NCBI GenBank assembly: GCA_950295325.1 | Contig: OX485806.1 | Location: forward strand, 1,924,001 to 1,988,000 | Length of the DNA stretch: 64,000 nt | Direction of reading: 5' to 3' | Source of the DNA: Polytrichum commune | Taxonomy: Eukaryota > Streptophyta > Polytrichopsida > Polytrichales > Polytrichaceae | Shown: piece after piece, positions 23,730-57,590 of the stretch | Position numbering within the stretch: the first letter of the stretch is position 1 | How the letters are laid out: every line of letters begins with the position of its first letter | Notes under the pieces: generated by a model | What the model was told of the DNA's origin: nothing | Databases searched by the model: none | The model's input: the letters and a program-made list of their open reading frames with translations, nothing else | Translations under genes and position numbers: made by a program

Positions 23730-23737
23730 GGAGAGGC

Positions 23738-27198: not shown

Positions 27199-30100
27199 TC
27201 AAATCAATTTATTGAGTTTGGCGAGCCTCATGATGCTCTTGAATACATTATCGCGGGGGCTTAGCGCCGCATTGCCGAAGGGGTTGGACCTAACAAAAAA
27301 TGGTATGCTACCGGCGTGGAGCACGAGCCTTCTAAGGTAGGGGGCTAGCCTATCGACCAAAAATGTGTCTTGCCTATCGCCGGTCCAAGTGTCCGGGAAG
27401 ATGACGTTGCCCGGGGGGTTCAAGACGCTCTTGGTGGGGCTGTCGTCGATGAGGACGGTGTTCTCTAGAGTCGGCCACCACCCGTGCGGCGTCCCTTGCA
27501 GACGGGGGACGCCTCGCCAGAGTCTCGAGCGGAGGACCTTGAGGAACTGTTGTCCTCCGCCCCGACCGCCAAACTTGGGCACCGGTTGACCTTTCTCGTC
27601 GAGCAGCTCGTCGCAGTCCTCTTGGCCGAGGACGAGGCAAGGGCTCGGGAGATCGCGGAACAAGAAGTGCACGATGGGCTCGGTGTTCTCCATGACCATG
27701 GAGCTCCACACAATGACGTGAGCGAACTCGACCACCTCGCGAAGGAAGTCACGCAAGCCGGGACGGGCGCGGACAGCCTTGCGGTTAATGAGAGTGTCGA
27801 GCTCGCCATTGTAGTCCCTTTCGTCCGGGTGACGGAAGGGACGCGTGGGGACCCTTGGGATGTGTTGGGTGTGACACAACACCCCGTTGAGGTCAAAAAC
27901 GATGAAAGGTTTGTGCCGGGTGGGAGGTCCACTGGTCGAGGGGTTGCGACCTATCTCCGGGGGGTCCTGTGATGAACAACTCGACTAGTTTAATTCTATG
28001 ATCCAATAATGAAACTTTGCGTAGAAAATGAAGACGGTGCATTATGGGGAAAGACGAGGAAGTGAGGAGAGTGCAAGGAAAATGTGCTCAAGGGCACACT
28101 TGCGAACGAGCGTTCGTGAATGAAGGCTGCGGGGGCGGTGCGCATCATTTACGAGCGCTCGTTCGTGAGCGCGGCTACACGTACATTTACGAGCGGTCGT
28201 TCGCAAATGAGGTGGACAGTGGGTCGCAGCCTTTCACAAACGAGCGTTCGCGAATGAGGTGGGTATGCAAGAATCAACATAATCTCATCAACATATACAA
28301 CATACGAGAAGGGGTCGAGGGCAGAGAATTTGAAGCAACGCGATGCAGATAACATAGGCTCATATATTAATCCGTTGAATATTTACATTTCTCACGTGAT
28401 AGTCTATCACATTTTCCTAAGGCAAAATGATGCCGTGTCCTACAAAACTGTTCGGCCCTAAGGGGGACCGCTGAAGAGGGCTCTCGCAAGGCCACTGGAT
28501 GTCGATGAAGAGAAAAACATCGCGATGTTAGAGAGGTTACGAACGCGCGTTCGTAAAAAAATGGTATTCTCAGAGGAGAGTTACCTCGTCATCGGGGGGA
28601 GGGGCAGCGGCGCTGGACCGAGCAGCAGGTCCCTCCTCAACGATTAACGAACGCGCGTTCGTAACCTCCACAGCTGCAGCCGCCTCTGTCTCCATGGCCT
28701 CTGCCTCACGCTCCGGTTGAGACGCCTGTGTCGCCTGGATGCGCAGCGCGTCTTCTTCCTCGGCGCCTAGGTCGAGCGCGTCCATCCTGACATCCTCCAT
28801 CCACGCCGCATGGGTTTCTTCCACGTCCATCCCATGCACCCCTGGTGCGTCATTGGGGCTCCCCTGCGTGTCCTCCACAATGACCATGTCAGTGTGTCGC
28901 GCAGAGTCATCGCCATGTCTGTCTACTACCCTGGGGACGATGGTGAAAGACGACGCATCGGTGTATGAGGGCAGTCCTACCCTTGAAGGGGGAGGGGTGA
29001 GGACTGGAGGACCTGAAGATTCACGAACGCGCGTTCGTAAATCCTCGTCCTCCTGGATGGCCGCCGCCACAGCATCGTGGGAGGTGGTCGAGGGAACCTC
29101 TGGTGGCGGAGGAGTGCCAACAGGCGTGGGGTGGGGCGCCTGCTGGCGGGAAGGCCCTCCGGTGAACATGCCCGGTGGAGGGGATTGGGAGGGGTATCCT
29201 CCAGGGAAGGGGTAGGCCGGCTGGGGGGGCGCCGAGAAGCTCTGCATTCGCTGGAGCATGGCGAGGATGGCGTCCGTCTTCTCGTTTGACTGCCTCAGCT
29301 CCTCCTGAATTGCGAACATTTTCTTGGCATTCTCCTCTGCCGCCTTCGCCATGTCCTCCTTCATCTTTTGCTCGAGCTTGGCGTTAAGCTCGGCGACGGA
29401 CAACGCCTCCTCTTTGACCCTCTTGTTTTTGCCAAAGTCTACCCCCAGCTCGACCATGATCTCCATGTCGCCCTCGTCCTCATCGGAGACCTCGATGATT
29501 GCCCCCGGAGGCAGCTCCACGTAGGGGGTCTTCTTCATCCTCCGCCTCGTGTTGCGGTACTGGTCCAACATCGGTCGGGACCGTTGGTCCAGAAGGTCGA
29601 GGTTCTCCATCTTGGGAACCACGACCGGCCTGGGCGACACGGATGTCGAGCATCCCCCAGGAGTGCCGAATGCCTCCGCTCCAGACGTTCTCGCGGGGAG
29701 GACATCTTGGGTTGTCCCCGCCGACGACCCCGTGTATCCACTCGGAGTCCCTTGCACGTCGGATGGATTTCCCGACGGCGCCAAAATGCGGAGAGGAGTG
29801 ACGTCCAAGGATCGGAGGATCGCCTCGACGTTGTAGGAGGGCGCGGGCTCGTCGTCGTCCGTCTCCATGGCGGGCATGCCTTCGTCGACGGGCATGTTGA
29901 TGTCCGTCCTCGGGAGGGACATGTCCTCCAGGTCCATCGTGGAGGCCTTCGCCTGTGCACGTGGAAGTCCTCCTCGTCGATGGCTTCAATGAAGCTGTTG
30001 ACGACCAGCCCCAGCATCTGAGATTCAAGAAAATACGTTAGAATATATGAACGTGCGTTTGTAAACATCAACGACGAGAAACAATGTCATCAAAACCCAA

Positions 30101-32901
30101 GACAAGTTGAGGTGAACTTTACGAACAAGCGTTCGTAAATATTAGTTGGAGAGCTTACCATCGCAGCGTACATGAACTTGCTGCCGCCACAAACGTTGTA
30201 CACGGTCTCTCCGCTTATTGCCACGCTCTGCAAAACGGAGACGTAGAACTCCAACCTGAGTTCCATCGCCGGGAAGACAGTGTACAAGGTCTCCTGCAGC
30301 AGATCCTTGGGAGGGGGATGGGGGATGCTGTAGATCTTCTTGAACGTAGTGTTCGCCTTGACAGGGGCTCGCCCATTCCGAAGCGCGTTGTACGTCAAGA
30401 AGACGAGGCTGACCGCCCCCACCTGTTTGTTTCCCCTGGCCTCATTGATGGCCACGATCCCTTCCGTCTTGGCGGGCACGTAAGTGCTGTGGAAGATGTT
30501 GTACTCGAATTTGATCATCTTCTCGTACAGGTCGACTACAGCAGAGAGCTTTTCCTGCTCCACTATCCACAGCCAAACGTGAGGCTCCCTCATGTCCGGA
30601 GACTTGTGCTCCTTGAACTTGGCCATGAAGGGGTCGTAGAAAGGTATGTCCTTCCCCCCCTGCCTCGACGCACCGGGGATCCCCCTGAAATCGATCAGGG
30701 CAAATGGGCACCCCCGTCGATCCTCCCTCACCTCGGCCCTGCTCATGGTCCAGTCCCACTTGGAGAATGTCACCCTCTCCACTCCGGTTGTCACCAGACA
30801 AAATCTGGCCACTCCTTCGAATGTGGCCAACCTCTTCCGCGCCAAAAAGCTTCTGTATTGCTCCACCTCCTGGGGATCCGTCTCGGTTTTCTTTGTCCTC
30901 TTGTTCCCCTTCTGCTTCAAAATGGAGGCGTGCTCCTTGACAAGACAACGCATTGAGGGTCCGGAGATGTTGTAGTCGACCTTGAACATCTTCCAGCTGG
31001 CCCAATTAATGTCCCCGTCGGCTAGGATGAGTGCGTACTCTGGTATTAGGGCGCTCAACTCCCTCATTGCAGCAGTCTTCAACTTGCGGTGTTCGCACCA
31101 TTCCTTGATGGAATACGTGCCGGGCTTGTGTCTTGGCCTCTTCAAAAATATCTTCGGGTATGGGATGGTTCTTCCCACTGTGTTCCCAAGAAGATGCACC
31201 GCGCACCTCTGCAACTCGGACTCTGTTAACCCTTGAAGGGACCTGAAGAACTCCCTCAGTAGTGGAGGGGCCTCCCCGGTCTTCTCCGCGCTGTACTTCT
31301 CCTCGGTGTCGGGGTTGACTAGATCGCCCGAGCTGTGCGCATCAAAAAATTGTGTCCACAACTCCCAAGTGTCCCTGTTGCAACAGATGAGGCGGAGCTC
31401 ACCCTTGAGCTCCAGGACAGACTTGGTTGTTGTAGACTTCATGTCGATGGAGGAGAACTTGTCCACCATCGCGTCGCAGAATGCCTGCAGCAAGAAAGAC
31501 ATCAGTAACGCACAAAATACGAACGCACGTTCGTAAGTTTGAATGTCAAAGAACTTGAAATTTTGAATGTCAAAGATATTTACGAACGTTCGTTCGTAAA
31601 CTCACCTTCCATTGTGGAGACGGCGTCTTCGCGTTCTCCCTTTCTTTAGGAGGGCACCCGTGGGCGACCCAGACGTCCCTTGCAGCCACTATGTTGGCTG
31701 CCCACGACGCCTCGAAGGCCTTGATCTTGTTGCCGGAGTTGAGGAAGGTGGATATCTTCCGCAGCTTGTCCCAATCGTCCGACCACACCAAGAACGCCTT
31801 CCAGTAGCGCAAGTCCTCCTTCAGCTCATGCTGGAAGTTGTCGTCCTTGAGAATTATCTGGGACACCTCCAAGCTGTGTTGGCCGTCTATGATCCAGAAC
31901 TCTCCATTCTGGATCCGTGGCCAGTCCTTCTCCGTCGGACGGGATGTCAGCCCTTTCGGCATGACGCAGACGGTCTGCCTGTCCCACTTGACGTTGTTCA
32001 TTAGATTATTTATCTGCCACTTCACACCACCGCTTTCGCGAGAGCGAACCACCCATTTGTTGGGGGACATCTCGCACTTGAAGCAGTCCACGTTGAATGT
32101 GAAGTGGCGTCCCATGGGCCAGCAATCCTTTGAGTAGTTGTTGAAGTCTCGAAGGATCCTCGTGGCCTTCACAGCGTCAGGGTTCTCACCCTTTTTCAAG
32201 GGGGTGGGCATTACGACAGGCGAGGTCACCTCTGCGGTCTCCGTTACTCCCGATTTCTCCATCTCCTCCCTTGTCCTCTTCGATGGCGTGGAGTGTCTAC
32301 TGGGGCCCTCCGTCGCCCTGCTAGCGGGAGGCACAGGCCTGGGTGCACTTCTAGATCCTCCTGCCCCTGATGTGGATGGTTTCCTGGGGCTCTTCTTCTT
32401 CTTGTTTGCCTCAGTGACCACACTGTTGTATTTGGAGATGTTCAATGCAAGGGCGGTCAATTTCCTTGCCGTCCAGTATGGGCTTAACGCATATTTAGAG
32501 AAGAGGCCGTCCAGGTCGAAGTGCTTGGCATCTTCCGCTACGTTATTGGTGGCGTATTGGTAGGAGAAGGTATTTTTCTGAAAATGCAACAAGAGGTTGA
32601 TATGATCCTTCTTGTTCTTCATGTCCAGAATTACATACTCCCCCTGGGCCTCTATGGACTCTATCTCCCACGTCTTCATTTGAACCCACTGTTCGGGCTG
32701 GTCCGGTCTTGTCTCCAGCTCGTATGTGAAGCGCATGCAGAAGAGGCCGTCCCCGATCTTCTCTGGCAGTGCCGTCCACTCCCCCATGAAGTCTTCCTTG
32801 GGGACATAGTTGTCGTTGCCGTTATCGTCTAACACCGACTCTGGGAGGCCATCGACCTTCATCGCGAACATCTCAATGGCGCTTCTGCTTGATCTTGCCA
32901 T
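27199..32901 (-). CDS. Inner-element gene 1: fusion of ParB/DGQHR-like, unknown, coiled-coil and FCP1-like domains
   Basis: Four exons, all phase 0: 32901-31606, 31484-30159, 30017-28585, 27966-27199 (about 1,607 codons). Exon 1 (432 aa) has NGEFWIIDGQHSLEVSQII, resembling the ParB/DGQHR signature with Ser for Arg. Exon 2 (442 aa) is a conserved unknown domain (GCPFALIDFRGIPG, PHVWLWIVEQE, HSTYVPAKTE). Exon 3 is acidic and Pro-rich with a coiled coil near KMKEDMAKAAEENAKKM. Exon 4 is an FCP1/NIF-like HAD domain: FDLNGVLC (second Asp is Asn), VIVWSS, LIDDSP, NPPGNVIFPD. An acceptor lies directly before the ATG, so a 5' leader exon is likely. Exon 3 is one base short of a codon multiple, and comparison with the homologue places a 1-nt deletion near 29950. 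The same exon order and phases occur at 51439-56940. Domain names rest on motif resemblance. Confidence 0.7.
28100..28262. repeat. Four degenerate palindromes (TTTACGAACG-type) in gene 1 intron
   Basis: Copies near 28102, 28148, 28188 and 28234, spaced about 40-46 bp, in the intron before the FCP1-like exon. They vary in the arms (CGAGCGTTCGTGAAT, CGAGCGCTCGTTCG). A perfect copy lies at about 28538, and copies also occur inside exon 3 at about 28646 and 29023. Confidence 0.7.
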
Positions 32902-33011
32902 CTGCAACAGAATATAAACAATTAGTGACTTTACGAACGAACGTTCGTAAGTGACATGCATATCCCACAGACAACGCAGTGTTAATGCGTCTTTGCAATT
33001 AATGTAATTAT

Positions 33012-33513
33012 ATTTACGAACGTTCGTTCGTAAATGAGGGGTTGCAAGAACATATAATTTTTTAGTATTGAGTTTACGAACGAGCGTTCGTAAAAGATAT
33101 GAAGATCAAAGAGACTAGTCGTCATGATTGTGTTTGTAATATATTTGGTTATTTTTACGAACGATCGTTTGTAAAAGATATTGGTTTTATAGATTTGGAT
33201 TCATTTACGAACGTGCATTCGGAAATATGTCCATTTGGTCTATCTTTTCGGACATTTGGTTGATTTATCTTTCGTAAGTATATGTGATTTGTCTTATTGG
33301 TGTTCGCAAAATTATATTTGTTCTTTAGATATTCATAGAGGTTCATATTAAAGTTAAGGTTCATTCTGAGTGATATTTTGAGTATATTTACGAACGTGCG
33401 TTCGTAAATATAGATCATCTCAAAGAACGTGGAGTGCGTATTTACGAACGCACGTTCGTAAATGGAGGTTCGGTATGCAGTGTATGTCCATTTACGAACG
33501 AGCGTTCGTAAAT
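33012..33513. repeat. Cluster of seven palindromes upstream of gene 1
   Basis: Copies near 33013, 33073, 33155, 33204, 33388, 33440 and 33490. Each is TTTACGAACG, a 2-nt centre (TT, AG, AT, TG, CA), then the reverse complement. Another copy at about 32931 lies just before the ATG-proximal acceptor. Position upstream of gene 1 suggests a regulatory or recognition cluster (inference). Confidence 0.85.
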
Positions 33514-34029
33514 GTGATGGTTTTGGGATCCCCTGTCCGTACATATATGTATTCGTATATATACGAATACGTATATATACGAATATGTATATAACTCACT
33601 TATTAGCTACTCTGCTTGCAGCCGTGCCTGCAAAATTTTGGTCAGAATGATGCAAATCTTCAATCATAAAGCAATTGAGATGCAGAATGAGATGCAGAAT
33701 GAAACATGAAGAAGAGAGTGATAATTCACATTGCATGTAACAAAAGAAATTGAATTCAAGAAGCAACATTTTCAGAATGTGAGAGGAGTTGGAAAGGATA
33801 ACAAATTACATTGAAATGCTGCACACTGCAATCCCTGCTTCTTCTCTTTCTGAAAATCCCAGAAATCCTCACAACTGCACACTCAATTGCCTTTCAAATG
33901 CACACTCAGATAACTCTCTAATGCAGACCTCAAGCCTTCACAGCTTATATACAAACCCTAGTATACTCCTATGTACACAAAACTCACAACCTTGTAGCTC
34001 TCAAGCTTCTGAACTCTTAAGCAAACCCT

Positions 34030-34340
34030 AAACTCTCAAGCTTCCCTAAACTCTCAAGCTTCACTTCTGAAGCTTCCCTAAACTCTCAAGCTTCACTTCT
34101 GAAGCTTCCCTAAACTCTCAAGCTTCAACTCTGAAGCTTCCTTAAACTCTGAAGCTTCTGAAGATCACCCTCAAGCTCTCAATCCGAAACTCTGAAGCTT
34201 TCCTACTCAAGCTCTCAAGCTTTTGAAACTCCCAAACTCTCATACTGAAAGCTTTCACAAACTCACAAGCTTTCACAATGAAAGCTTTCACAAACTCAAA
34301 AGCTTTCACACAAGCTCTCAATCTGAAATCTCTCAAAACT
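34030..34340. repeat. Tandem repeat of CTCAAGCTTC/GAAGCTTCCCTAAA type
   Basis: A 33-bp unit (CCCTAAACTCTCAAGCTTC plus ACTTCTGAAGCTT) repeats about three times at 34048-34160. It then degenerates into HindIII-site-rich CTTTCACAAACTCAAAAGC text. It lies within the inner element, between the palindrome cluster and the CCGGAT-rich block. Confidence 0.65.
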
Positions 34341-34583
34341 TGCAACAAAACTAATTTAAAACTTCAAGACTAAAAAAAGCAAGAGCTTCGCTCTCTAAGC
34401 GCTCCGCTCCTCCTCTCCTCGAAATGACAAATGAGGAGAAGAGGAAGGGGCGCGGGGAGGTAGGTGCGCCGCTAGGGTTTCCCAGCACCTGCCACATGGC
34501 ACAACTCCACTGGCTAGGGCTGGGAGGGAGATGGGATGGGATGGTATGGGAGGTGATGGGAAGGGATGGGATGGGATGGGATG

Positions 34584-36544
34584 TGTGGGAACCCACAAAC
34601 ACCAAAAGTTCCGGATTGGCGGGTTTTTGTGCCAAATCCGGATATTTCCGGGTGACCTTAGTATCGTCCAGGGATTCTGTGAAGTGTAGGAGGTAGAGAC
34701 TTTCCGGAACTGTTTGTTTCCCCTCTTCTTTTATATTTTCCGGAAATCCTAGTTTCCGGCCTTTTTGAAGTCCTCCTGTATCCGGAACTTCCTCTTCCGG
34801 ATTTGACTCCTAAGTCCCAGACGGATTGTTTCCTCCCTAAAATATCTTTGTACTACGTTCTATCCTCCCTTAATGATGGGTATTTTCCGGTGAAGACGTC
34901 CTTCTCTAGAGGGGGGGTCCGGATCTTCCCTCACAACCAAGCCGGATTGATCAGGTCCGGATTGGCAGGTCACACAGGGAGTCCGGATTACCTCCTAGGA
35001 CTACAACAACAGGAGGGTGCTGGATTCCACGAAGGGGGGTAAGCTCAACAGAGTGAAAGAGTGATCCGTACCACGTTCCGGAATATCTTGTCTCTACGCT
35101 ACTCGGATATCCGGATCGATGGTGTCTCCTTCCCCCTTCCTCCGGATCTATATCCCCTCATCCGGAATCCTAACTTACTCCTGTACTTCTCCGGATCTCA
35201 TCCGGCTAGTACTACCTTTGGCTCTACTGAATCCGGGCTAACTAGGCGATCCGTACCATTTTCCGGATTGGTCCGTCTAAAGGCGGTGGGACCTCTTCAG
35301 AAGCTCGGATGGCATGAATCCGGATCCCTCCCGGACTTCACCCAATCCTCCCAGCGGCTATCCCACCTAGACGTTTCCCGACCAGCCGGGAAAATGAGGT
35401 TTCCCTCCCACTACACCCGGAAAGGTTCCGGAAGGTAATGACTAGTGATCTGATCCGGGTCTCCCCTTCCGGCGGACGGATCCAGTATACAACTGCCTGG
35501 GGCTCTACTAAATCTGAGATAACTGGGCGATCCGTACCACTTTCCGGATTGTTCCGTCCGAGGGCGGTGAGACCTCTCAAAAGATCGGATGGCGTAAATC
35601 CGGATCCCTTCCGGATTTTACCCAGTCCTACCAGCGGCTATCCCACCCGGGCGTTACCCAAACATCCGGAATAGTGAGGTTTCCTTCCCACTACACTCAA
35701 AAAGGATCCCTAGGCTTGCAACCGGATCTAATCCGGGTTTCCTCTCCTTTGTCCTATTCGGACTTCCTACTCCTTCCTTACTTCTAGCGTACAACAACCT
35801 CCCAATCCGTCCGTGCACAAAACAAATGAGAATAGGTGAAGATCTAGAGTTTTATTGAGTAGGGAGCAACACAATACAACAATGGAGAAGGAACACTCCT
35901 CAAGCTCCTTATTCAGCCTTAAGTAGAGGCTGTGATCCCTAACTAAGGGTGGCGGCCCAGGCGGCCGCCCTGGAAAACCCTAACTGCGAGAAATCCGGAA
36001 CTTCGGACTTTCCGGATTTCTCGGAAGATCCGGAATTCCCGGATCTTGATCTGCTGACACAAAATTTGAATTGCATGCTCGCCTAAGTCTGATCTACCTA
36101 TTCCTGCTGTCCTAATTCTAATCTACCTACAGCTGCATGCCTAAGTCTAATTCAAGTGGTGTGGTGTTTTTTCGCCGCCTTTCCATTTTTGGTTTGACTT
36201 GGTAATCCGTTGATGGCGGAAGCTCCTCCTCCGGGGGCAAAAGAGTCTCCTTGGTTGCTGAAGGCCCTAGCCGCTGAAGGCCCTAGCCGCTGAAGGCCCG
36301 GTTTGCTCACGGGATCCGGAATTTGACTTAAATTCCGGTCCGGCCAAAGTATCAGTTTTAACCATTTTATCGTGTAAGGCGGAGTTCAAAAACCCATTAT
36401 TCCTAATACGGCTAAAACACTCAAATAAACCTGATTACCCCTAGGTTAGCATGGTAAAATACGGAATTTGGATCCGTATTTCCGTATTTCCGTATTTCCG
36501 TATTTCCGTATTTCCGTATTCCGGCGAAAAAGTGGGCTCCCACA
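34584..36544. mobile_element. CCGGAT-rich block bounded by TGTGGGAACCCAC / GTGGGCTCCCACA
   Basis: An about 1.96-kb segment starting TGTGGGAACCCAC and ending GTGGGCTCCCACA: a 12/13 inverted match with TG...CA ends, compatible with a solo LTR or a TIR element. Flanks share GATG only with a one-base offset, so the duplication is not clean. The interior is crowded with TCCGGAT/TTCCGGA strings and has no coding capacity. A tandem duplication of about 286 bp occupies roughly 35220-35700, and an 8-bp (GTATTTCC)n array lies at 36476-36520. Confidence 0.4.
35220..35700. repeat. Direct duplication, period about 286 bp
   Basis: The segment starting GGCTCTACTGAATC near 35221 recurs as GGCTCTACTAAATC near 35507. 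Both contain GCGATCCGTACCA, CAGCGGCTATCCCACC and CCCACTACAC at corresponding places. Confidence 0.75.
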
Positions 36545-38222
36545 TGATGCGATGGGAGATGGGAGATGGTTGTATATTGGAACCCTTCATGTTATTCTCA
36601 TGCTTTGACATATTTATATGTAATGGACGCGTTTAGGGCATTAACTTGAAAAGCTTAGTTCAAATACATGAATTTTACTCGTTTTATTTCCTTAGTACCT
36701 CTACATTTGGATTCCTTGTAAATATATTTTAGGAAAATATGCTCAGTTAATTCGTAATAAACAATGCATGTCATTTCCTAGGTTGTCAATGTAGAATCCA
36801 CCCCCAAAGATATGTATATGGTGTTTTAAAATATAGTTTATGTAAGAGCTAGATATCTTTCAATTAATTCGATGGTTCCTCAAATAAATATTACATGCAA
36901 AAAGGAATTCATAATAATATGAGATTGCGCAGAGTTGCTATACGATAGGATGTCAATTCAAGTTCCAATATTAGGTGTTAGCTTGAACTAATGCATTTAT
37001 GGAGTGGTCAACTATTTTCCTAGCATCAACTACGAGCTTGCAATGAATGAAGTTAGTGCAATTACAAGGTTTTTCAAGAGTCAATATTGTTTCTGTGTGT
37101 AATGTATCCTAGTCACAATCTAAAACCTAAACCCAAATACCACATACACAACTTTCACAAACCCTAAACCCCTAAACCCTACCCCGAAACCCTAACCCTA
37201 AACCCTAACCGCAAACCCTAAACCCTACATCCCTGCATCTTTTTATCTTACCAACCTTTCTTATATGTGGCCATGTTGTTTTCTGAGGGCAGGTCAAATT
37301 GGTCTACCAATGTTGGTTGGATGGAGAATGCTTAATTCCGTTCATAACTACTATAATAATTGATAATGATGCCAATTGTCATTTTCACATTCCAAATTAA
37401 TAGATTTGAGATAAAACTTTGGTTTAGGTGATAAGTGAAATTTCAAATATTCCCACTTTCACCTTAATAGTTATGAGTGAAATTTCATCACACAATCCAC
37501 GATCTTATTATAATAACATGCATGTCTTAAGACTTCAATTTATATCAACACTTTAAGCTATGATGATGCACATCCTTCTCATAGGATGCAAAACATATAT
37601 TAATTGTAAGTACATACTATTGTATGCACCATTCCAAATTAATAGTGCATTTCTCCAAACCCTAAAAGTCTATTTCCAATAGGACCTCAACTCATTTAAT
37701 CATGTGTCAACTTAAACTAACAATCGAACAATGCATTCAACTATAAATATCACCAATGATCTAATAAACATTTAACCAATGTGTATCCGTACCCTTACAA
37801 CAAGTGGACGAAAATTCAATTTCCAATAGGACGTCAAACACATAATAATTGTAACTATGATTCAACGTTACGGTAGCTAGTATGGTTTCAAGTCTCAATG
37901 ATCATTACGCTATCATACTATGCAGCATTACAAATTGATTAATCCTTCCTACTCATGCCATTTTAATTCCTTATTTTCACACCTAAATACCATTTGAAAG
38001 AAGACCTAACTTACATATATTATTAGGTATAATTAGTTCATAGTGTCCTCAATCTACCATAGTGCAAGCCATTATGGATTAACCCGATTTTTTAGTTGTA
38101 TTCATGCACTTGGTGACCATATTACGGTCATTTTTTGATGTGAAACATATGATACCTATAATTTTAGGGGCGTCCGCAACATGTTTCTTAGCCACTCTGA
38201 CCTCATTGTGTGTGTGTGTGTA

Positions 38223-38257
<35 letters not shown>

Positions 38258-38520
38258 CTATGACTTCGACATTCATAACTTTATTAGGCATCAATTGTCA
38301 ATTAACTTGGACTTCATACCTTAGTCGCAAATCATTAAATATTCAATGTTAACCATCTCCATATTTAGACATTATGTGTATATATATATATATATATATG
38401 TATATACATATATTTCGATGAGACCTTGGTCACAACTAAGGTGTGCAACCGATTTATATATTTTCAATATGTTGGCATGCATGCAAGGCATGTTCCATAC
38501 ATGACAGTGCTATTTATATA
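36545..38520. other. AT-rich non-coding part of the inner element, with microsatellites
   Basis: No gene found. GT/TA microsatellites lie at about 38210-38257 and 38377-38407, and a plant-type telomeric tract is annotated separately. Confidence 0.5.
37150..37229. repeat. Interstitial telomere-like tract (CCCTAAA)n
   Basis: Degenerate runs of ACCCCTAAACCCTA, CCCTAACCCTAAACCC and AAACCCTAAACCCTAC: about nine CCCTAAA/CCCTAA units on the + strand. It sits inside the 19.2-kb inner element, so it was carried or captured by a mobile element and does not mark a chromosome end here. Confidence 0.7.
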
Positions 38521-38788
38521 ATTCCGCATGGATGGAATGGGAAATTGTTAGGTCAAAGAAGGCAGCGGGAATCCGCTTTTTAAAGAGCATCCAAGGGATT
38601 TTGAACCAGCGGGGTGAAGTACTTAAAGCTCTTCCCCCCACAACAAAGCTTTTTTCAGCGGCACATGCAAGTGTGCGCTCTACAGACCTCACCGAACGCG
38701 CTCAAGCCATTTCGTGTGCGCCAACCCTACACCACCCAGGTACAGTACAGGCTGTACCTACCGCATATACCGCCGTAAATACCGGAAC

Positions 38789-39757
38789 TTTACGAACGCA
38801 CGTTCGTAAAGATGAAGAGCTTCAGGTTTAGACAAATGATTCGGACCTGGACATGGCAAGGATTTACGAACGCGCGTTCGTAAATTCCACATGAGAGCAT
38901 GTTCTGGATTGAGCTACTCATATGGATAGTCACATGCACGTAATCCATCTCAGTTATTTACGAACGTGCGTTCGTAAATATGCCTTCGAGGACCATGCAG
39001 ACATATTTGACCCTTATCTTTTTTGTACCTGATGGTCGGTAATTTACGAACGTGCGTTCGTAAATCCCACCTGAGAGCATGCTTTGGATTGAGCTACTCA
39101 TGGATAGTCACATGCACATAATCCATGGCAATTATTTACGAACGTGCGTTCGTAAATATGCCTTCGAGGACCATGCAGACATATTTGACCCTTATCTATT
39201 GGTACCTGATGGTCGGTAATTTACGAACGTGCGTTCGTAAATCCCACAGGAGATCATGTTTTGGATTGAGCTACTCATGGATAGTCACATGCACATCATC
39301 CATGGCATTTATTTACGAACGTGCGTTCGTAAATATGCCTTCGAGTTTCATACATACATATTTGACCCTTGTCTATTGGTACCTGATGGTCGGTAATTTA
39401 CGAACGTGCGTTCGTAAATCCCACATGAGAGCATGTTCTGGATTGAGGTACTCATATGGTTAGTCACATGCACTTAATCCATGACAGTCATTTACGAACG
39501 TGCGTTCGTAAATATGCCTTCGAGGATCATACATACTTATTTGACCCGTATCTATTGGGACCTGATGGTCGGGAATTTACGAACGTTCGTTCGTAAATAC
39601 ATGTCATTATTGTCTACGCATCCAGCAACACATCTTCATTCATGCACATCAGTATGGCAGTAATTTACGAACACAGAATAGCAAGAAAAATATGCTCATC
39701 GCTCGTCCGTGAAGGATGTGAACACGGGGTCGCACCCATTTACGAACGTCCGTTCAT
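38789..39757. repeat. Array of regularly spaced palindromes, two-site unit of about 178 bp
   Basis: Sites near 38789, 38862, 38956, 39042, 39134, 39218, 39310, 39397, 39489, 39575 and 39737. From 38862 the spacing alternates between about 92 and about 86 bp. The intervening text is itself repeated (GCCTTCGAGGACCATGCAGA in one spacer class, CATGGATAGTCACATGCAC in the other). This makes a tandem array of two-palindrome units, about four copies. Most centres are GTGC (TTTACGAACG-TG-CGTTCGTAAA). It precedes the plus-strand transposase-like gene. Translated YERAFVN repeats are artefacts of the array. Confidence 0.9.
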
Positions 39758-40363
39758 AAATGGGTAGGTACGCAAAAGTCAACATAATCAAATTCACAAT
39801 ATGGAGGTGCTCAGTGTTCAAAATATTGTTGGAGTTGATTCAGGCATCATCTGCAGATTTGCTAATTTTGTGCGTATGGACAAGTGTTCTCTTGTGATAG
39901 TATATCGCGCAGGTTCCTAAGTCAACATGGTACTTTGACCTACAAAACCGATATTCCTCAGGGTGCTCTCATTTGAGGGATCTCGAAGGCCGCCGGATGT
40001 ACATGGAGAAGTTACTGAGGTCACGAACGCACGTTCGTAAATGCATGTGGCGTTCTCGGATTTCTGATTTCGTCGTCGGTTGTATGGGGACAGGCGCTAG
40101 TCCGAACAGCAGGGCCCTCCTGGACGACTAACGAGTGTTCTCCTCTTTGTCCATGTATTGTTTACATTAGTGAACAACCTAGACGTATGCTTAAAACGTT
40201 TTTTTGGGACGCGCGTTCGTCTTTGTGCGTGAGGTTCTCCAATGGTGCACCAAAATTTGTTTGTCAATTTTGGACCATTTATCTCCACATATATTCTATC
40301 CTCTCTTGTATGCATTACGGTGGTGGTTGGGTTGATAATTTCCTGGTGGTTGGTCTAGGCTGT

Positions 40364-43493: not shown

Positions 43494-44868
43494 ACATAAC
43501 ATAGGTGAAAGCTAACGGCGGGAAAAAACATTAGTGCTTAGTAGTCTTGGTTTTTAATAGACTTAGTAGACTTGTCACACTCAATTGTGGTATACATTTG
43601 GGATGTGCCATCCAAAACCATAAGAACCTTATTTATGGGATGCGCACCCTAAACTCTATAATGACATAAACCATTTGTTTTTTAGATTCGCTTGTTATTT
43701 TCCACATGGAGTTCACGTTTTCATTATAATTGCAATTTTCTATTTTTAGTATTAGGAATATTCTTTACGTGCGAATTTTTAAATTGTCATGTTCTTGATG
43801 TTCCCAACATTCCATATGCCCACAATATTGGTGTCGCAACCCTTGCTAGGTCCCTTAATAATCTTGCCAATTTTCAATTCTAGCAAAGGTTACGAGTAGC
43901 TAACCCTTCGCATTCCGCCATGCTAATGGTTAGCTCCTCTTACCCCGGACCAATAGTTCATAGGAGGGAACCAACCCTCCTACTTTGCTTTCGGGACTCA
44001 CCCCTTAATCGGTAACCCATTTCCCCAATGTGGACTTCCATCCATGGAAGTCCAACCCTATGTTGATCATCGCGTTGCCGGAGCAACACTACAACAACCC
44101 GAACCATACTAGGCAACTATGGCCTCACAATAGGCCAATGCCCATGGAGGCCGTGCCGTTCGGCCTCGGGTGGGTGAGGCCACACCACCTCACCCATATA
44201 AGCCTCTAGGACTTCACGCGGGGCCCCTACCCCACCGTCAACCAACCTCTTGTCTCCCTACCAAGAGTTGGGGCCAAGTGGACATTTTCCTTTAGCTGCT
44301 GGGCCTAGAACCCCCCAGCAGCTTCAGACCATCATAACTTCCTTGTATGATGTCTGATCATAACAACCAACCACTCCATCCTCATCTACGCTTCACGTAG
44401 ATGCCGATGGACTCCTCACTTGCTCCATTCGAGCAAGTCTTGAGGAAGTTATGCCTGTTTGAACCTTGGCAGTCCCGGGAATCCCTCCCATGCACTGCTG
44501 TACCAGGGCGCTGTCCCGGGACAGCGCCCCACTCAAATGGCCATAACTCCTAGCTCACACCTCCGATTGAGGTGATCTTGAGCATTCTAGAATCACCACG
44601 CCATGAGCTACGCATAACTCATGGCCTTACCCTCATGCCTCCTAGTCTCCGTGGGTGGGAGGCGTTCCCAACGCCCGGGGCCCTCACCCACACTAGGATC
44701 ACTTGGGCCCTCTCACCAATGGCGCCACAAGTCCCGGGTGTCACTCCGGGGTCCCCCTTGTGCCCATGGTGTTTCGGCCACTCCTCATGGAGAGGTGCGC
44801 GACAATTGGCATCCCAAACTATGGGCATATTTTATTTTGAGACTTTCAAAAGTCTCCGATTAACGAAT
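43494..44868. other. Non-coding right arm of the inner element
   Basis: 3' flank of the transposase-like gene. The latter part contains repeated phrases on CATAACTCCTAGCTCA and ACGCCATGAGCTACGCATAA. Open frames here (for example 44572-45132) are Pro-rich translations of C-rich DNA. No gene is supported. Confidence 0.45.
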
Positions 44869-45387
44869 ATAGTGTTCCTATCCAAACCTCCTAAACCCGC
44901 TCCCATCCCCCGCTCCCCACGTTCCCACACGCTCCCTGCGTTCCCCCCCGTCCGCCCCCCCCCCCGTTCCCACTTACCTTCCCGTCCTCCCTCCCCGTCC
45001 TCCCCGTCCGACCCTTCCCCCCCCCCCCCCCCGTCCGACCCTCACCCCCATCCGACCCCATGTTCCCCCGCGCTCCCCACCCGTTCCCCCTGTCCGACCT
45101 ACACCCTCCTTAGTAATATTTTATCACTTTGATTTTAACAAAATGGTAAACACAATGGCAAAATGGTTTACATGCCAAGGGAAATATGCACATCCACATC
45201 GGCATTTTTTGCCACATAGGACGCCACCTTGGCAAGAATGTAAGTATTTTACCCACCCTACTAGGTTGACCCTAGTTTGACCCTACGAGGAGCCTATTGT
45301 GTCGTGACGGAGGGGTCCGACCCGACACGACACGTCATGACGGCACGACCCCGTCATGACGTCGCGATAGACAACCCTGGATGAATC

Positions 45388-48929: not shown

Positions 48930-50440
48930 GCTGCGAAGGACGCTAATGATGAATTTCCATGCTTTGGATTCATTGACCAAGCTACCAATAAAGTGTATGA
49001 GTGGTTGGGATGATCGGTGATTCGGCGAGGCATGTTGGCGAAATTGTTACTCGCATTTCGCGAAGAGACCCGAGTGGTTTTGCATATTCATTCCGTACGG
49101 TGGCTATCACGCGGTATGGTCATGGAGAGGATGGTTTTTTGTATGCCTGCAATTTTGGAGTCATGGCAAGTTGAAGAACATGCATGGTACACAAATATCA
49201 CCTCTTTGCAGTTCCAATTCTTCATTCATCTGTTGGCTGATGTGCTACTTGAGTTGAACAAGCTCAATCGGAAATTTCAGTGTGATCTCGTAGATATCAC
49301 ATCCATAGCCTCTACTATCGATGTGACAATCAATTTGTTGCGGAGACACTATTTGGGAGTGAGTTTTGGCACAACAACCAAACATTTGGGAAAAAAATTG
49401 CGCAACGTGGTGCCAACTGGAGAGATCTTGTATGTTGATAGGTTTGGTTGTGAGAAAGTGCATACTTTGCACTATGACTCTATGCCCGGGTGTGATGTAG
49501 GGGGCTCATTGGAGGATTGCATCACCCTAGCTAGACTATACGTCCAAAAGGTTATTGACTTACTAAATGATCGCTTTCCCGACTTGCCCATTTTTAATGC
49601 AGCCAGGCTTTTCAGCCCAAAACACTATCCCATGGATGCATTGGATCGAGGCATTTTAACTGAGCAATGGTTGAACCGGTTGGTGACACATTTCAAGTGG
49701 AGCTCTAAACATGTTGATCAACGCCAATGCGGAGTTGTTCGAATTTGTGGAGATGTTATCTTCAGCTTGTCAACACCGAAGTATGCATGAAGCTTGGGTT
49801 TTTTGTGGCCGTGACCGAGAGTTTAAGATCAATTGGCCAACCCTAATGTCGCTATGGCAAGCCATACTTGTGATCCCTACTAGCACTGCTGTTTGTGAGC
49901 GTGGTTTTTCAAAGCAGAATTGGGTTAAGAGCGAAAGGAGAACATGCCTAAACCTTGACACACTTGATGCATTGATGAGGGTTAGCCTAAATAGTTTGGG
50001 AGTTGAATTCATGGATTGGAATGGCATTTTTGACACTTGGAAAACCGCTACAGTAACCAACAAGCGTAGGGCATTGTCACTTCAAGAGGTGGAGTTAGAT
50101 GATTGATTTTTCATTAATATTTCATTGTAAACACTATATTCGTTAATTGGAGACTTTTTGTTGATTTTGAGACTATTTAAGGACGTGGCTTTCACAATTG
50201 TAGGAAGGAAAACAGTACAAAGATGCTATGTTCCCAATTTAGGATTCAGATATGAGACTCAAATGCATGGAAATACACAGACGTAAATAAGAAAACGAGA
50301 TATATGAAAACATTTGCATATACAAAATCGATATCATATTTATTGAGTAGGGTTGAAGTACAAAATACATGTGGAATATCCAATATTAAGCCAAAGTCCT
50401 AAAAATATAATCCCTCTACTAAAGGTATGTTAATAATAGC

Positions 50441-51438: not shown

Positions 51439-54400
51439 TCATATTAATTTATTGAGTCTAGCGTAGCCGTACAATCTCCTAAATTCCTCATCTTGTGGGC
51501 CTAGAGGCCTATTGCCAATTGGGTTGGAGAGCACAAAATCCGGGACACTTCCGGGGTGATAGGCAAGCCTCCTAATGTAGGGTCCTAGTTCACTCTCTAG
51601 AAAGTTGTCATTTCTATCGCTTTCCCAAGGATCCGGGAATATGCAATTGCCCGGGGGATTGAGAATACTCTTTGCCGGGCTGTCGTCAATGAGGAGTGTG
51701 TTATCCGGGGTGGGCCAACAACCGTGGGGAACCCCCTCCAACATAGGGACGCCCACCCAGAGGTTCTTCCTCAGGACCTTTAAGAATTGAGGCCCACGAC
51801 CTCCTCCGACCTTGGGTACAATATTGCCACTACGGTCATAGAGGTCATCGCAGTGTTCTTGACCGAGAAGCAAGCATGGCATTGCGAGTTCTCGGAAAAG
51901 GAAACCGACGATGGTCTTCGTGTTGTCCATGAGCATAGAGCTCCAGATGATGACATGGGCGAAGCTAAGGACCTCACGAAGGAAGCTCCTCAAACCGGGG
52001 CGGGCACGTACAACCTTCTTATTTATGAGAGTATCGAAATGTCCGCCGTAATCCATGTCTTCTGGACTACGGAAGGGCCCCTTGGACGCACTATGCGAGA
52101 TATGTTTGGAATGACAAAGCACCCCATTGAGGTCAAATATTATGAACGGTTTCATCATGGGCGCGCTTGGTTTTCCCGCAGGGTTGCGACATATCTCCGA
52201 CGGACCCTGTGATGGAACATTCTATCTAGGTAAATGGTACTACTCAAGAAAACCAATTGACAAGCATGGATAAACTCAACAAAGAATTATAAGGCCAAAA
52301 ATAATCCGAACCATCCAGTTGAAAAATTGGTATTAATGTAATTGGTGATACACATTTGGTGAATAATATACATTGTCGCAAAAAATATATGTTGAAGTTA
52401 ATGGAATCTATGCTAACAAAATTGTATCCACCCGCCGGGCGAAGTCGAGGATTGAACTCGATAATATACACACGCCACGAAGGAGGCAGACAATGAAGTT
52501 TCGGACGCGCGTCCGTAACATGGGAGGCATGCTCAAAGGTTGATTACCTCTTCAGGGGCGAGGTCCGCGCCAGCAGTGCCTCCCTCACCTGGCCCCGTCA
52601 TGGGCACAGGATCCGGACGAGCGCCCGCAAAATTGTCCAGATCTTCGACCACCAACAAGGTGTCTCCAGCCGCTTGCGACCCTTGAGTATCCACGTAAGG
52701 CTGATCCTCATCTGTGGAGTCTTGGCTGCCCCGCATATGTACATCTTCATCACCGATGGGGGCATTGCCTTCATTGACATCTGTCTCGGCGGCACCCGCC
52801 ATGTCACGTGCCGGTATCTCCTCCACTCCTGTAGGAATAGAGGAGGGCTCCTCTGGAGTGGCGACAACAAGGGGAGAGGGCGGGACAATCAACGTGGGAG
52901 CTGGATAAGCATGCTCGGGTATATAAACTGCATGGCTACTAGATGGAGGCCGCATGAGAGTGGTGGGCATGGACATGCCGGCCTCGGGAGCTGCACATAC
53001 AACTTGGGGCCTTGCCTGCAAGCTCTGCATCAAGCTCATGAATTGTTGGCTTTGGGCCAAGAACTGCTGATTTTGAGCCATGAGATCAGCGTGCCTTCGA
53101 GCAGACTCCAACCTAGCTTGCTTCATCTCAGCTTGGATGGCGGCCATCTTTTTGGCATGCTCCTCGTTAGCTTCTCGAAGCCGTTGGTCAAGCTCTTCCT
53201 TCATTCGCCTCTCCATCTTCTCGTCCAATTCGGACACTGACATCGGCTCTTTCTTCACCTTGCCAGGTTCCGTAGGCAAGACAGAGATGGCATTGTGAAT
53301 CCTAATCTCATCCTCGTCTTCATCGGAGAGCTCCAAGACCGCGCCTTCAGGGTATTCGTTGTATGGCGTCTTGTTCCTCTTTCGTCGACTCTCACGATAT
53401 AGAGAGATATCAGGCCTCAATATCAACTCCAGCACATCCCTCCCCTCCATAGGGGGTAGCTCTGAATGTTGAGATCCCCCTCCAGATGAAGCGGTGCATC
53501 CGCCTTCTGCCGCAAGGTCCACATCCTTCTCGGCCATAACACCTGGAGCACGAGATGGACCCGCAGTTGAGGGAAATCCAACTCGAGAGGTGGGAGTCCC
53601 AAAAGGTGAGAGAACAGGGGTATGAGGGACCCTTATCGGAGTGAAGTTCACGCGTGCCTCCTGCGCATCCGTGTCGTCTGTTCCTAGCAGGAAAGCACTT
53701 GGATTAATTGGGTCGCGAACAAGGCCGTGTAAAGGCTCCTGTGTGGAGGGCTGCGCTCTTGGGGAACTGGGATCCTGGTCCTCTTCAAGGTCTGTCTCCA
53801 TTCCGGGCATTGCCTCTTCTCTAGAAGAGAGAGGCACAATAGGATGGGGTGTAAGGACGTCCATGATGTCCTGGATATCCATTTTGGAGGCTATTACCCT
53901 GTGAGTATGGGCGTCATCGTAGTCGGAATCCTGCACAAAAGAATTCACCTGCAAGCCAAGCATCTGGACCATAACAAGAAAATTAGATAAGAACAATTGT
54001 GGTGATTGCATATAAATGAGGCTAGATGTCAACACATTATACGGACGCGCGTTCGTAAAACCACCACTCAAAAGTTGGACAATTTTCGGACGCACGGTCG
54101 TAAAATTCACATGCACCTGGTACTGGGTTTTTACGGACGCGCGTCCGTAAAATAACTATGCAAAAGATAGGTGGGTTGAAAGACAAACAAATACTCACCA
54201 ATGCTGCATACATAAACTTCGTGCCTCCGAAGACGTTGTAAACTGTCTCACTCATGACAGTTAAAGCCTTCAAGACCCCTATATAAAAGTCCATCCGGAG
54301 CTCGAACGCTGGATAGATTGCATGCATTGTCTCCTCAACAAGCTCCTTGGGATGTGGTGGCGGCAACGAATAGACTTTCCTGAACACCTCGTGTGGTTTA

Positions 54401-56940
54401 ATGGGCAATCGCCCAGTTGGGGAAGACTTGCGTGTTAAGAAATAAAGCTGCACAGCTCCCACTTGCTTCACCCCCCTTGCCTCTTGAATGACAGTGATCC
54501 TTTCTGTCTTCGCTGGGATGTAGGTGCTGTGGTACATATCGTATTCGAGGTCCATCGTTGATGTGTACAGATGGACAATGGATGTGGACCTCTCTTGCTC
54601 TACAATCCATAACCACACATGAGGCTCGAAGAGGGCAGGCGAGCGATAGCTCTTGAAGGCTTTCAAGAAGGGGTCGTAGAAGGGTGCTCCTGCAACGTCT
54701 TGCTTCCAAACTCCGGGAATTGCACGAAAATCAAAAATGGCGAAAGGGCAACCCCTGGGGTCATCTCTCACAGAGGCTCTTGAAGCATGGGTGTCCCATG
54801 TGCCGAACTTCATGCCCTTTGCGACCGTGCAGAATCTTGCAAACCCTCCAAATTTCGCGTTCTTTTTCCTATCGAGAAAGTGAACGTACAACCCTGCCTC
54901 CCTCTCGTCGATGGATCCCTTCTTTTCGTTCCTTCTGGATCGTTGGGCAAGGAAGGATGATGCCCCTTTTATCAAAGCTCGCATTGAGACGCCATTGATG
55001 TGGTATTCACCCTTCAGCTTCCTCCAATTCTCCCACACGATCTCACCATGACTATTAATGAGGTTGTGGGTGGGTAGCAATTTGCTAATCTCCCTTATAG
55101 CCATGGTCTTCTTCTTTCTGTAATCGTACCATTCCTTAATGTGGTATGTGGATGGCTTCATGTGCTTCGGCCGCTTCAGAATGATTTTGGGATAGGGCAA
55201 AGTTCTTCTAGGAGTTTCTAGAAGAATGTGTTCTGCTGCCCTGTACAGCTCCGAGTCCATCAATCCTTGGAGGGGACGAAAGAACTCTCGCAGGATTGGT
55301 GGTACCTTAACTTTTGAGTCGCTCTTGTAGGTGTTCTCCGTATCTGGATTGACAAGGTCGCCGTTGTTGTGGGCATCGAAAAGTCGCAACCATATTGACC
55401 ACGTCTCTTCTGTTGCAGTGATGAGCTTGAGTTCGCCTTTTAATTCATGTACTGTTTTCATGCCGCTTGTCTTCATGTCTATACTCGAGAACTTTGTCAA
55501 TATGGCATTGCTGAATGTCTGCAAGAGGCACGAATTGCAAGAAATCATAACATTGAATTCAGTACAGATTAAATTCAAATATTTGAATCAGTAGGAGGAG
55601 AAGGGCCACATTTACGGACGCACGTCCGTAAATCTATTTGAGTAACATACCTGCCATTTTGGGTTCTTCACGATTGCATTATCTCTTTCTTTTGGGGGAC
55701 ATTCGTGCTCCACCCACAAGGTTCTCCCAGCCACGATGTTGGCTGCCCATGAAGCCTCGAACTGCCTCACTTTATTCCCCTGGTTCATGAAGGCAGATAT
55801 TGCTATGAGCTGGTTCGAGTCCTTGGAATGCACAACGAATGCCTTCCAATATCGGATTGTCTCCTTCAATGGGCTTTTCCACTCATCGTCTTCAAGGAGA
55901 GCTTTTGCAACCATTACACTATGTTGGCCGTCAACAATGTAGAACTCTCCATTCTTGAGAATCGGCCAATTTTTTTCGTTGACTTCAACGATAGGATCCT
56001 TTGGTGTCACACAAATGGTCTGCCTGTCAAACTTGGGGTTGTTCATGATGTTGTTCATTTGCCACCATACCCCGCTTTCTTCTTTTGCTCTGGTATTCAT
56101 ACTTTCGGTGCCCTTGTGGCATTTGTAGACGTCTACCTCGAAAGTAAAATACCTGCCAAGGGGCCAGCATCCCTTCGTCTTCTCATCGAACTCTTGGAAT
56201 ATTTTTGTTGAGAGTTCGGCGTCAGGGCGTTGACCCTTTTTGAGGAGTGGAGCGACAGTCAGTGTAGAGCTGACATCCGGACCCTCTGTTAGTCCAGAGT
56301 CCATCTGCGAGTGAGAGCGTTTACTCGCTTGTCTGCTCCTTCTTGATGCACCACTCTGCGAGGGCCTTGAGGATTCCGGCACTGGTTTAGGCACACGCTT
56401 GGGCCGTTCAGGAACGACTTGTTTTTTCTTCTCTTTCCCCTTTCTGGCCTCTAGCAAGGCTCCATTTACTCTTGTTACATTGTTCAAGAGTCGTCCAAGC
56501 CGCTTACCCGTCCAAGGTGCATTACATGCATAGTCTTGGAACTCCGTCTGGAGATTGAAGCAAGCCGCATCTGTACTACCATTTTCACATTCATTTTTGT
56601 TGAATGGATGGTAAGATTCGTGCAAAATAAATGTTACTCGGTCTTCTTTCTTCTCAAGGTCTATTACTACATAATCCCCTTGTGCCACTGCACACTCTAC
56701 TGTCCACGATTTAAGCTTTATCCACTTCTCAGCTTCATCTATGTCTGTCTTCATTTGATATGCAAATCTAAGCACATATATTTATTTCTCGTCCTTTTCT
56801 ACCAGTACTGTCCAATTATCCACAATTTCATCTTGTGGCTTGTAATGGTCGTTGGGACTTATGTCTTTGATGGCTTCTGGTAGCGGAGGAATGAGAGCTT
56901 CTGCAAACATCTCAATTGCATGTCTCTTTTTAGATGCCAT
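51439..56940 (-). CDS. Second-block gene 1: ParB/DGQHR-like to FCP1-like fusion, with one in-frame stop
   Basis: Exons 56940-55651, 55518-54199, 53963-52548 and 52206-51439, all phase 0, about 1,597 codons. Each exon is within a few codons of its homologue in element B. Exon 1: NGEFYIVDGQHSVMVAKALL. Exon 2: GCPFAIFDFRAIPG, PHVWLWIVEQE, HSTYIPAKTE, ending KFMYAAL. Exon 3: MLGLQVNSF, an acidic Pro-rich region, and a coiled coil around MERRMKEELDQRLREA with a Gln/Met-rich stretch. Exon 4: FDLNGVLC, VIIWSS, LIDDSPAKS, NPPGNCIFPD. A TAA at 56782-56784 interrupts exon 1 where the B copy is open. Exons 2-4 are intact. Conservation of exon order in two diverged copies shows that the fusion was maintained. 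Confidence 0.68.
54037..54155. repeat. Palindromes in gene 1 introns of the second block
   Basis: Three copies near 54038, 54084 and 54132 in the intron between exons 2 and 3. Further single copies lie near 52501 (intron 3) and 55611 (intron 1). The arms are mostly TTTACGGACG / CGTCCGTAAA. One copy is hybrid (ACGGACGCGCGTTCGT). Confidence 0.85.
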
Positions 56941-56996
56941 CTGCAAATGATAAGATAGATAAGTTAGAATTCTTGGCAAAATATATAGATCATACT

Positions 56997-57590
56997 TTAC
57001 GAACGCGCGTTCGTAAAGTTTTGCAAATTTTCTCAATTACATTTTTTGATCCAAATGAAAAGATACATTTTTCCAAATACACATAACGCGTATATTATAT
57101 ACTCAAATATCTCTATAAGTTACGGACGCGCGTCCGTAAACTTCGCAAAGATAGTATGGTGTTGAATATCTATGTATTCAAGTTACGGTTAATATTACTT
57201 CAAGAATGCACGAACGCGCTTCCGTAACCTCTGCACATATATTATATATAGTTGATTCATAGTTCTTCCCAGTTTACGGACGCGCGTCCGTAAACTTTGG
57301 AAATATTTTAGATGGGAAATGTCTCTTCTACTTGCAAAATCTATTGCATTTACGGACGTGCGTCCGTAAACTCTATACATATATTTTTTGAGAGTCTTGT
57401 TTCTCACGTACACAAAGATCCACAAAGTTTACGGACGCGCGTCCGTAAACTTTTAGGATTATAAAGTCTATTCTAATATGCCTAATATTATAATATTTGG
57501 CTTCGTTTGCGTAATATGCTGTTTGAGAGTCTTGTTTCTCACCTACACAAAGATCCACAAAGTTTACGGACGCGCGTCCGTAAACTTTGA
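56997..57590. repeat. Cluster of about seven palindromes upstream of second-block gene 1
   Basis: Copies near 56998 (GAACG form), 57120, 57210 (degenerate), 57272, 57350, 57426 and 57562. All but the first two exceptions use TTTACGGACG / CGTCCGTAAA. A direct duplication of about 134 bp brings GAGTCTTGTTTCTCAC...CACAAAG twice, each ahead of a palindrome. It corresponds in position to 33012-33513 of element B. Confidence 0.85.

Follow-up and report, generated by a model that had tools for sequence, protein, structure and literature searches.

Two neighbouring elements in the genome of Polytrichum commune carry many copies of a 22-bp palindrome, in two versions, and both encode a protein with a GEF[WY]I[IV]DGQHS motif. 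The question raised by this locus is whether palindromes and protein form a system and, if so, what this system does for the elements. The window is the whole stretch of DNA analyzed, 64,000 nucleotides of contig OX485806.1 (positions 1,924,001 to 1,988,000); coordinates refer to it unless another stretch is named. The original prediction placed in the range 28100..57590 element-specific palindromes that co-diverge with a ParB-like protein, and offered a parS-like or self-recognition system as a reading.

Palindrome sites, transposon B and element C

The 22-bp palindrome occurs at 42 sites in the window, of which 31 belong to element B and 11 to element C. With up to three mismatches the AACG consensus matches at 40 and the GACG consensus at 33 window positions (the two sets overlap), and neither matched at this threshold in any of 100 dinucleotide shuffles of the window. 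With up to four mismatches, 43 sites are found: 19 at 28.1–33.5 kb, 12 at 38.8–40.0 kb, 11 at 52.5–57.6 kb and a weak one at 50853. The 22-bp family accounts for 23 of the 32 perfect 10-2-10 palindromes in the window; shuffled blocks average 0.12. A search of the genome containing the window (408 Mb, 64 contigs) showed 9231 exact sites of a third type, D, together with 2909 AACG, 1147 GACG and 43 A/G hybrid sites, and the reversed control of each count was 0. Thus the palindromes are real, and as predicted those of the window lie inside the elements. The anticipated 30 copies in B form two groups, one in the gene region and one in a separate array with a 177-bp period, and both are part of one transposon. 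Features of the window are listed below.

25712..25715, no strand: target-site duplication CCTA, left of B
25716..44876, no strand: transposon B in full, including two nested insertions, 29-bp ends and CCTA on both sides
25716..25744, plus strand: left terminal inverted repeat of B
27199..27882, minus strand: NIF/FCP-type phosphatase gene of B (PF03031, E = 6.9e-14)
28099..33512, no strand: 19 AACG-type palindromes in the 3′ spacer, exon 3, introns 1 and 2, leader and promoter
28570..30017, minus strand: exon 3 of the B gene, predicted gene model, in which the reading frame is shifted relative to C close to the exon start
30159..31484, minus strand: exon 2 of the B gene, with a predicted beta-class amino-methyltransferase fold at residues 221–442
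31606..32901, minus strand: exon 1 of the B gene, with a predicted weak PH-like domain and a predicted ParB N-domain, residues 267–393
34590..36546, no strand: insertion of about 2 kb in B, missing from copies E1, E2 and E3
38789..40041, no strand: 12 AACG-type palindromes upstream of the DUF7869 gene, most of them in a tandem array with a 177-bp period
40187..43493, plus strand: DUF7869 gene (presumed transposase), three ORFs (PF25273, E = 3.4e-37, middle ORF)
43831..44804, no strand: insertion of a repeat of about 975 bp in B
44848..44876, minus strand: right terminal inverted repeat of B
44877..44880, no strand: target-site duplication CCTA, right of B
50130..50158, plus strand: left terminal inverted repeat of element C
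51439..52158, minus strand: NIF-type phosphatase gene of C (PF03031, E = 2.1e-14)
52498..57584, no strand: 11 palindromes, mostly GACG, with one perfect AACG and two hybrids
52533..53963, minus strand: exon 3 of the C gene
54199..55518, minus strand: exon 2 of the C gene
55651..56940, minus strand: exon 1 of the C gene, with one in-frame stop

Element B has 29-bp inverted ends (26 of 29 positions identical once inverted) and flanking CCTA, and is therefore a DNA transposon with 4-bp target duplications. It extends from 25716 to 44876 and so beyond the predicted range. On the left, homology to copy E3 ends at 25715; on the right, E1 and E2 remain homologous as far as 43839, the insertion point of the 975-bp repeat, and the element ends at 44876. 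Copy E4 ends in the same kind of inverted repeats, flanked by CATA. The right end of element C was not found in a search up to 74 kb. Within B, the NIF-type and three-exon genes lie on one strand and the DUF7869 gene on the other; its position in the element makes the DUF7869 protein the presumed transposase.

Eight further stretches of the genome, and 10 kb beyond the window, were compared. E1 to E5 were picked at AACG sites and C1a, C4a and C1b at hybrid sites, thus the choice of stretches is not independent of the sites. The ParB-fold gene is present in seven of the eight (E1, E2, E3, E5, C1a, C4a and C1b), and E4 holds fragments of the other genes only. These seven with the two window copies, W-B and W-C, make the nine ParB-bearing copies, leaving aside a D-clade gene in E3. 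The DUF7869 gene accompanies seven of the nine, on the opposite strand and beyond the palindromes; C1a shows fragments, and the gene is absent from E3 and W-C within the sequence compared. A chance neighbourhood of DUF7869 was rejected on account of this linkage and of its position inside the element bounds given by copy homology. The NIF-type gene likewise accompanies the transposon in seven of nine copies, behind the ParB-fold gene, the exceptions being E1 and C1a.

Other repeats and reading frames are found in and around the elements. The 975-bp repeat is also present in E2 (six places) and in E3 (three), and has perfect palindromes of its own, GGACTTCCAT-CC-ATGGAAGTCC and GGCGCTGTCC-CG-GGACAGCGCC. 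Repeats of the CCCCGTCCG type occupy 23700–25700 and 44900–49800, and AAACCCT repeats resembling plant telomeres are found at 37159–37227 within the spacer 36500–38780. A protein kinase gene that looks plant-like, these AAACCCT repeats and the CAG/CTG pattern described below make a plant host likely. An ORF at 47617 is DUF4371-like, below the cut-off (E = 3.2e-4). The ORF at 62768–63745, which looked DUF7869-like, had no Pfam match and was dropped. Two segments are alike (64.5% over 465 columns): 28194–28650, in the 3′ terminal part of the ParB-fold gene region, and 39700–40134, which immediately precedes the DUF7869 gene. The idea that the latter is a fragment of a second copy was set aside because other copies, too, have arrays upstream of DUF7869.

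The three-exon gene and palindrome types among its homologues

Blocks B and C each contain a three-exon minus-strand gene, with matching splice phases in the predicted gene models, and the GEF[WY]I[IV]DGQHS motif is indeed present in both. The splice between exons 1 and 2 is backed by homologue P0002 (863 residues), which is uninterrupted across the junction. Both window copies are defective, the C gene by the in-frame stop in exon 1 and the B gene by the exon 3 frame shift relative to C; neither was mended in the models. Only in the B gene do palindromes lie within exon 3; leader and promoter, introns 1 and 2, and the 3′ spacer are likewise occupied.

Structure prediction gives exon 1 a ParB N-domain fold, in line with the ParB/sulfiredoxin-type fold expected of it, and also gives exon 2 a beta-class DNA amino-methyltransferase fold, with helices at exon-2 residues 161–193 in the model. 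In both predicted folds key catalytic residues are replaced, and the methyltransferase part looks like a pseudo-enzyme. Ser stands in place of the GxxR arginine of ParB (GQHS) in 32 of 34 rows, with GQHT in P0029 and GQYS in P0043, thus a CTP clamp is doubtful. In place of a DPPY-type motif IV, the expected strand carries D-[FW]-R-x-x-P, placed by order and spacing and not by superposed coordinates; D265, R267 and P270 are invariant across 60 rows. The FxGxG SAM motif is replaced by a GG-x-K type, mostly NVFGG[ST]K among the matches listed, and G434 and K436 are invariant in the same 60 rows.

Pfam gave no match to either the ParB-fold or the methyltransferase-fold domain, with no ParB family match in 34 rows scanned; DUF6551 appeared below the cut-off in seven of them (best E = 0.012), covering the DGQHS stretch. 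DUF1985 and DUF287 were not found in a Pfam scan of B exons 1–3 and C exons 1–2 with E up to 1. NCBIfam gave no match for the given exons, and no relatives were found in viral contig and genome contig collections. For exon 2, PHROGs gave three single weak matches (best E = 0.063), and phage methyltransferases are several of the best rows in a viral structure library (best E = 0.044). The best PDB sequence matches, E = 0.29 for exon 1 and 0.062 for exon 2, are all unrelated. Rfam gave no match at gathering scores.

In block C the change from A to G alters both arms at most sites, as had been described, but not at every one: the site at 56996 matches AACG perfectly, and hybrids stand at 54038 and 54083. 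Sites with up to two mismatches are all AACG in E1 (23), E2 (28), E3 (28), E4 (39) and E5 (21), and GACG makes up 17 of 23 in C4a and 12 of 16 in C1b. The diverged, B-like copy C1a is mixed, with 10 hybrid-like sites and 9 AACG-like ones. This copy is decayed (C1:63618001-63638000), and many of its palindromes, at sites 7651–13388 of that stretch, show CG to CA/TG changes, as expected if methylation set in once the element was dead.

Protein searches gave 134 homologues, which were assigned by best reference to three clades, B, C and D. Many of the homologue ORFs read through into introns, and the resulting peptides spell palindromes. Judged by eye from the peptides, the spacing between the 5′ splice site and the first intronic palindrome is short and nearly constant among members of a clade; for intron 1 in clade B, for example, it is about +5. 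A back-translated 10-2-10 scan of 135 flanks, with no arm sequence as guide, a stop appended to every tail and the inter-exon stretches of P0012 and P0102 counted twice, gave 90 matches; 200 residue shuffles gave 36 ± 6, the largest 52. Exact peptide patterns for 12 arms, selected after the flanks had been inspected, match 65 of the 134 proteins. Clade B shows 28 AACG matches plus 9 ambiguous ones, and clade C 10 GACG, 3 GCCG-type and 5 ambiguous. Clade D shows 34 GTTT-type matches (23 GTTTGGGTCG, 4 GTTTGGGCCG, 4 GTTTCGGTCG and 3 GTTTCGGGCG). All 75 clade-specific matches agree with the protein clade and none crosses clades; the remaining 14 are ambiguous among AACG, GACG and CACG arms.

The trees agree with this. 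They were built from exon matches only, dropping those under about 300 residues for exon 2 (71 rows, 35 labelled) and about 280 for exon 1 (42 rows, 27 labelled). Palindrome labels need 7 changes on the exon 2 tree (minimum 6, shuffled mean 20.0) and 6 on the exon 1 tree (minimum 6, shuffled mean 14.9), and on neither were any of 200 shuffles as low. There are irregularities. GCCG-type arms need two origins within clade C on the exon 2 tree, and the sisters P0044 and P0045 differ in label on the exon 1 tree. P0101 has two kinds of site, P0040 has one site with unlike arms, and the outermost B-clade row, P0007, displays a hybrid-like peptide that the strict patterns missed.

The D palindrome was deduced first from peptides alone and later seen in DNA. 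The D-clade gene in E3 is accompanied by nine perfect and three near GTTTGGGTCG-NN-CGACCCAAAC sites, at 21.7–27.5 kb of that stretch, and zero AACG sites, and the adjoining B element has AACG sites only. From the peptide matches, both exon trees and this gene, the palindrome variant tracks the protein clade, as the original prediction proposed. Part of this match is plain co-inheritance, because the tags lie inside the gene.

A proposed self-recognition system and its rivals

Palindrome arms are more conserved than other noncoding DNA in most regions compared. Between W-B and E5, identity is 38/40 in arms and 44/81 elsewhere in intron 1, 34/40 and 60/101 in intron 2, and 92/160 and 185/484 in the promoter; the 3′ spacer shows no clear excess (72/100 and 407/587). 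Between C4a and C1b the corresponding values are 18/20 and 71/112 in intron 1, 35/60 and 72/176 in intron 2, and 145/220 and 286/717 in the promoter.

Base composition also differs between parts of the elements. CAG+CTG was counted, with palindromes masked, in eight copies, which do not all hold every part and are not independent because element copies share ancestry. Observed over expected is 43/135 (0.32) in NIF, 270/546 (0.49) in DUF7869 and 133/368 (0.36) in the spacer; depletion is far less in the ParB-fold gene (996/1281, 0.78) and in the arrays (126/176, 0.72), the array being itself a tandem repeat. The window spacer 36500–38780 is strongly depleted (17 of 43 expected), and the first 23.7 kb of the window gives a ratio of 0.85–1.06. 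GAC+GTC shows no step matching this contrast, and CpG in B goes the opposite way (NIF 1.02, DUF7869 0.90, ParB exons 0.72–0.85). Codons were compared with a set of seven ORFs from NIF, DUF7869 and the 47.6–49.8 kb element. In B the Gln CAG/CAA ratio is 29/13 against 9/40 (p = 1.6e-6), and Leu CTG differs as well (p = 6.8e-5). The C codons agree in part (Gln p = 0.009; Leu CTG p = 0.49, not significant). The CAG/CTG depletion may be a record of CHG methylation in the past. According to excerpts of PMC5221884, CCG is the under-methylated one of the CHG sites, and CCG shows no depletion in NIF or DUF7869. The footprint is a hint of anti-silencing at the ParB-fold gene and arrays.

The palindromes would, on the reading proposed here, be the element's own address tags. 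An element-encoded protein, most likely the one with the ParB and methyltransferase folds, would bind the 22-bp palindromes, probably in dimeric form so that each 10-bp arm contacts one subunit, in noncoding parts of its own element and of sister copies. Tag and protein would evolve together, so that each lineage would serve mainly its own copies. The likeliest benefit, by analogy, would be sequence-specific anti-silencing, the bound protein keeping tagged regions free of host silencing. The transposon, its tags and the matching of tag to clade are observed; binding and anti-silencing we infer, and a self-recognition system that probably counters silencing, VANC-like in function with an unrelated protein, falls just on the probable side in our judgement. 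The rarity of A/G hybrids (43 against 2909 AACG and 1147 GACG) favours it, as does the position of tags in promoter, introns and a tandem array, like VANC targets. Mixed sites in block C, C1a, C4a, P0040 and P0101 speak against it, and so, for the form proposed, do the Ser in place of the GxxR arginine and the altered methyltransferase motifs. The binder could instead be the DUF7869 or NIF protein.

A ParB-type loading system in a eukaryotic transposon family is plausible, with a probability somewhat under even. A ParB-methyltransferase fusion, put to a new use and perhaps descended from phages or bacteria, would load at parS-like palindromes, coat the element and keep it active, with at least seven specificities and independently of VANC. 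The seven are AACG, GACG, GCCG and four arms of the GTTT type. Three of them are seen in the DNA of one genome, where adjacent elements kept theirs apart in the one case seen, and the others come from deduced peptides alone.

Other functions of the palindromes have to be weighed against self-recognition. The protein may act as an autorepressor for copy-number control, repressing both genes from palindromes in its own promoter, introns and the DUF7869 flank, in the manner of DndB or KorB. The upstream regions of the two divergent genes are dense in sites, and DndB is described in excerpts of PMC12704722 as a ParB-like ATP-dependent repressor. However, the thousands of sites genome-wide, the arrays, and the palindromes within introns, 3′ spacer and exon 3 exceed what repression needs, and the CAG/CTG footprint hints at less silencing, not more; we regard this function as unlikely. 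It is less likely still that the DUF7869 protein binds the palindromes as enhancer repeats for transposition. One array does lie directly upstream of the DUF7869 gene in the same element, but the B palindromes cluster in and around the ParB-fold gene as well as upstream of DUF7869, and none comes within 2 kb of either end of B.

Two further explanations do without a DNA-binding protein. A satellite-like repeat spread per lineage would be physically linked to the genes, as these sites are, and the array did grow by tandem duplication. The change is, however, symmetric and concerted across dispersed sites, and arms outlast other noncoding DNA between B and E5 in introns 1 and 2 (not clearly in the 3′ spacer), which makes plain co-inheritance improbable as the whole account. 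RNA hairpins, which had been named as an alternative, might lie near splice sites and control splicing of the gene, and in many homologue tails the first palindrome is a few to about 25 nt past the 5′ splice site (by eye). This is the least probable of these readings because many sites lie outside introns, in promoter, spacer and array, and because letters are conserved (1.1–2.0 bits per position in the arms of B sites), when a hairpin needs pairing only.

Significance and comparison with known systems

Beyond what had been predicted, the analysis adds the predicted methyltransferase fold of exon 2, the DUF7869 gene, the inverted ends and more than two palindrome variants. If the self-recognition reading is true, sequence-specific self-recognition arose in plant-type transposons on at least two occasions, each with an unrelated protein, and this suggests that escape from silencing favours lock-and-key systems in general. 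A ParB-fold/methyltransferase-fold fusion would then also have found a use in a eukaryotic genome. The diverged protein-palindrome pairs, a natural set of co-evolved pairs if the ParB-loading reading is true, could reveal a recognition code from sequence alone and provide tools for addressing DNA.

ParB-parS and Noc share the N-domain fold predicted here and act at palindromic sites; parS is a different, shorter palindrome. The element here is not a replicon. A parS role in DNA partition is not supported: the element is a chromosomal transposon, and there is no ParA-like gene among the genes identified. Transposon-encoded DNA methyltransferases and TET/JBP are likewise cases of transposons with DNA-modification proteins, but the enzymes differ and the fold here is an apparent pseudo-enzyme. 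Literature searches gave no description of this palindrome/ParB-fold transposon system among the matches listed, and no mention of DUF7869 in the literature searched.

The nearest domain relatives are phage fusions of a ParB fold with an N6_N4-methyltransferase, which in excerpts of PMC12704722 join a ParB fold to an amino-methyltransferase fold as here; DUF6551 is also reported there fused to a ParB fold. The protein described here differs in that it belongs to a eukaryotic transposon, is split by introns, has a PH-like front domain and has its catalytic motifs replaced. The words plant and transpos are absent from the main text of PMC12704722. VirB of Shigella, according to excerpts of PMC10770331, is a ParB relative that acts as an antisilencer, countering silencing from specific DNA sites. 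VirB is bacterial, counters H-NS and binds CTP, whereas the GxxR arginine is missing here.

In pattern and proposed function the closest likeness is to VANC/VANDAL of Arabidopsis. According to excerpts of PMC5735166, a VANDAL family has short motifs in its noncoding DNA (introns, intergenic and terminal parts), to which its own VANC protein binds; these motifs form tandem arrays that diverge between families, and VANC removes methylation. VANC has DUF1985 and DUF287 domains, neither of which was found here, and VANC21 recognizes a 9-mer, YAGTATTAY, in contrast to the palindromic 22-bp motif. A DUF7869 gene stands in place of VANA of VANDAL, and hypomethylation, shown for VANC in that text, would be the presumed effect here. 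As in the excerpts of PMC5735166 and PMC10398659, a transposon-encoded protein is paired with an element-specific noncoding motif that is also present in its own introns, is arranged in tandem arrays and differs between related families.
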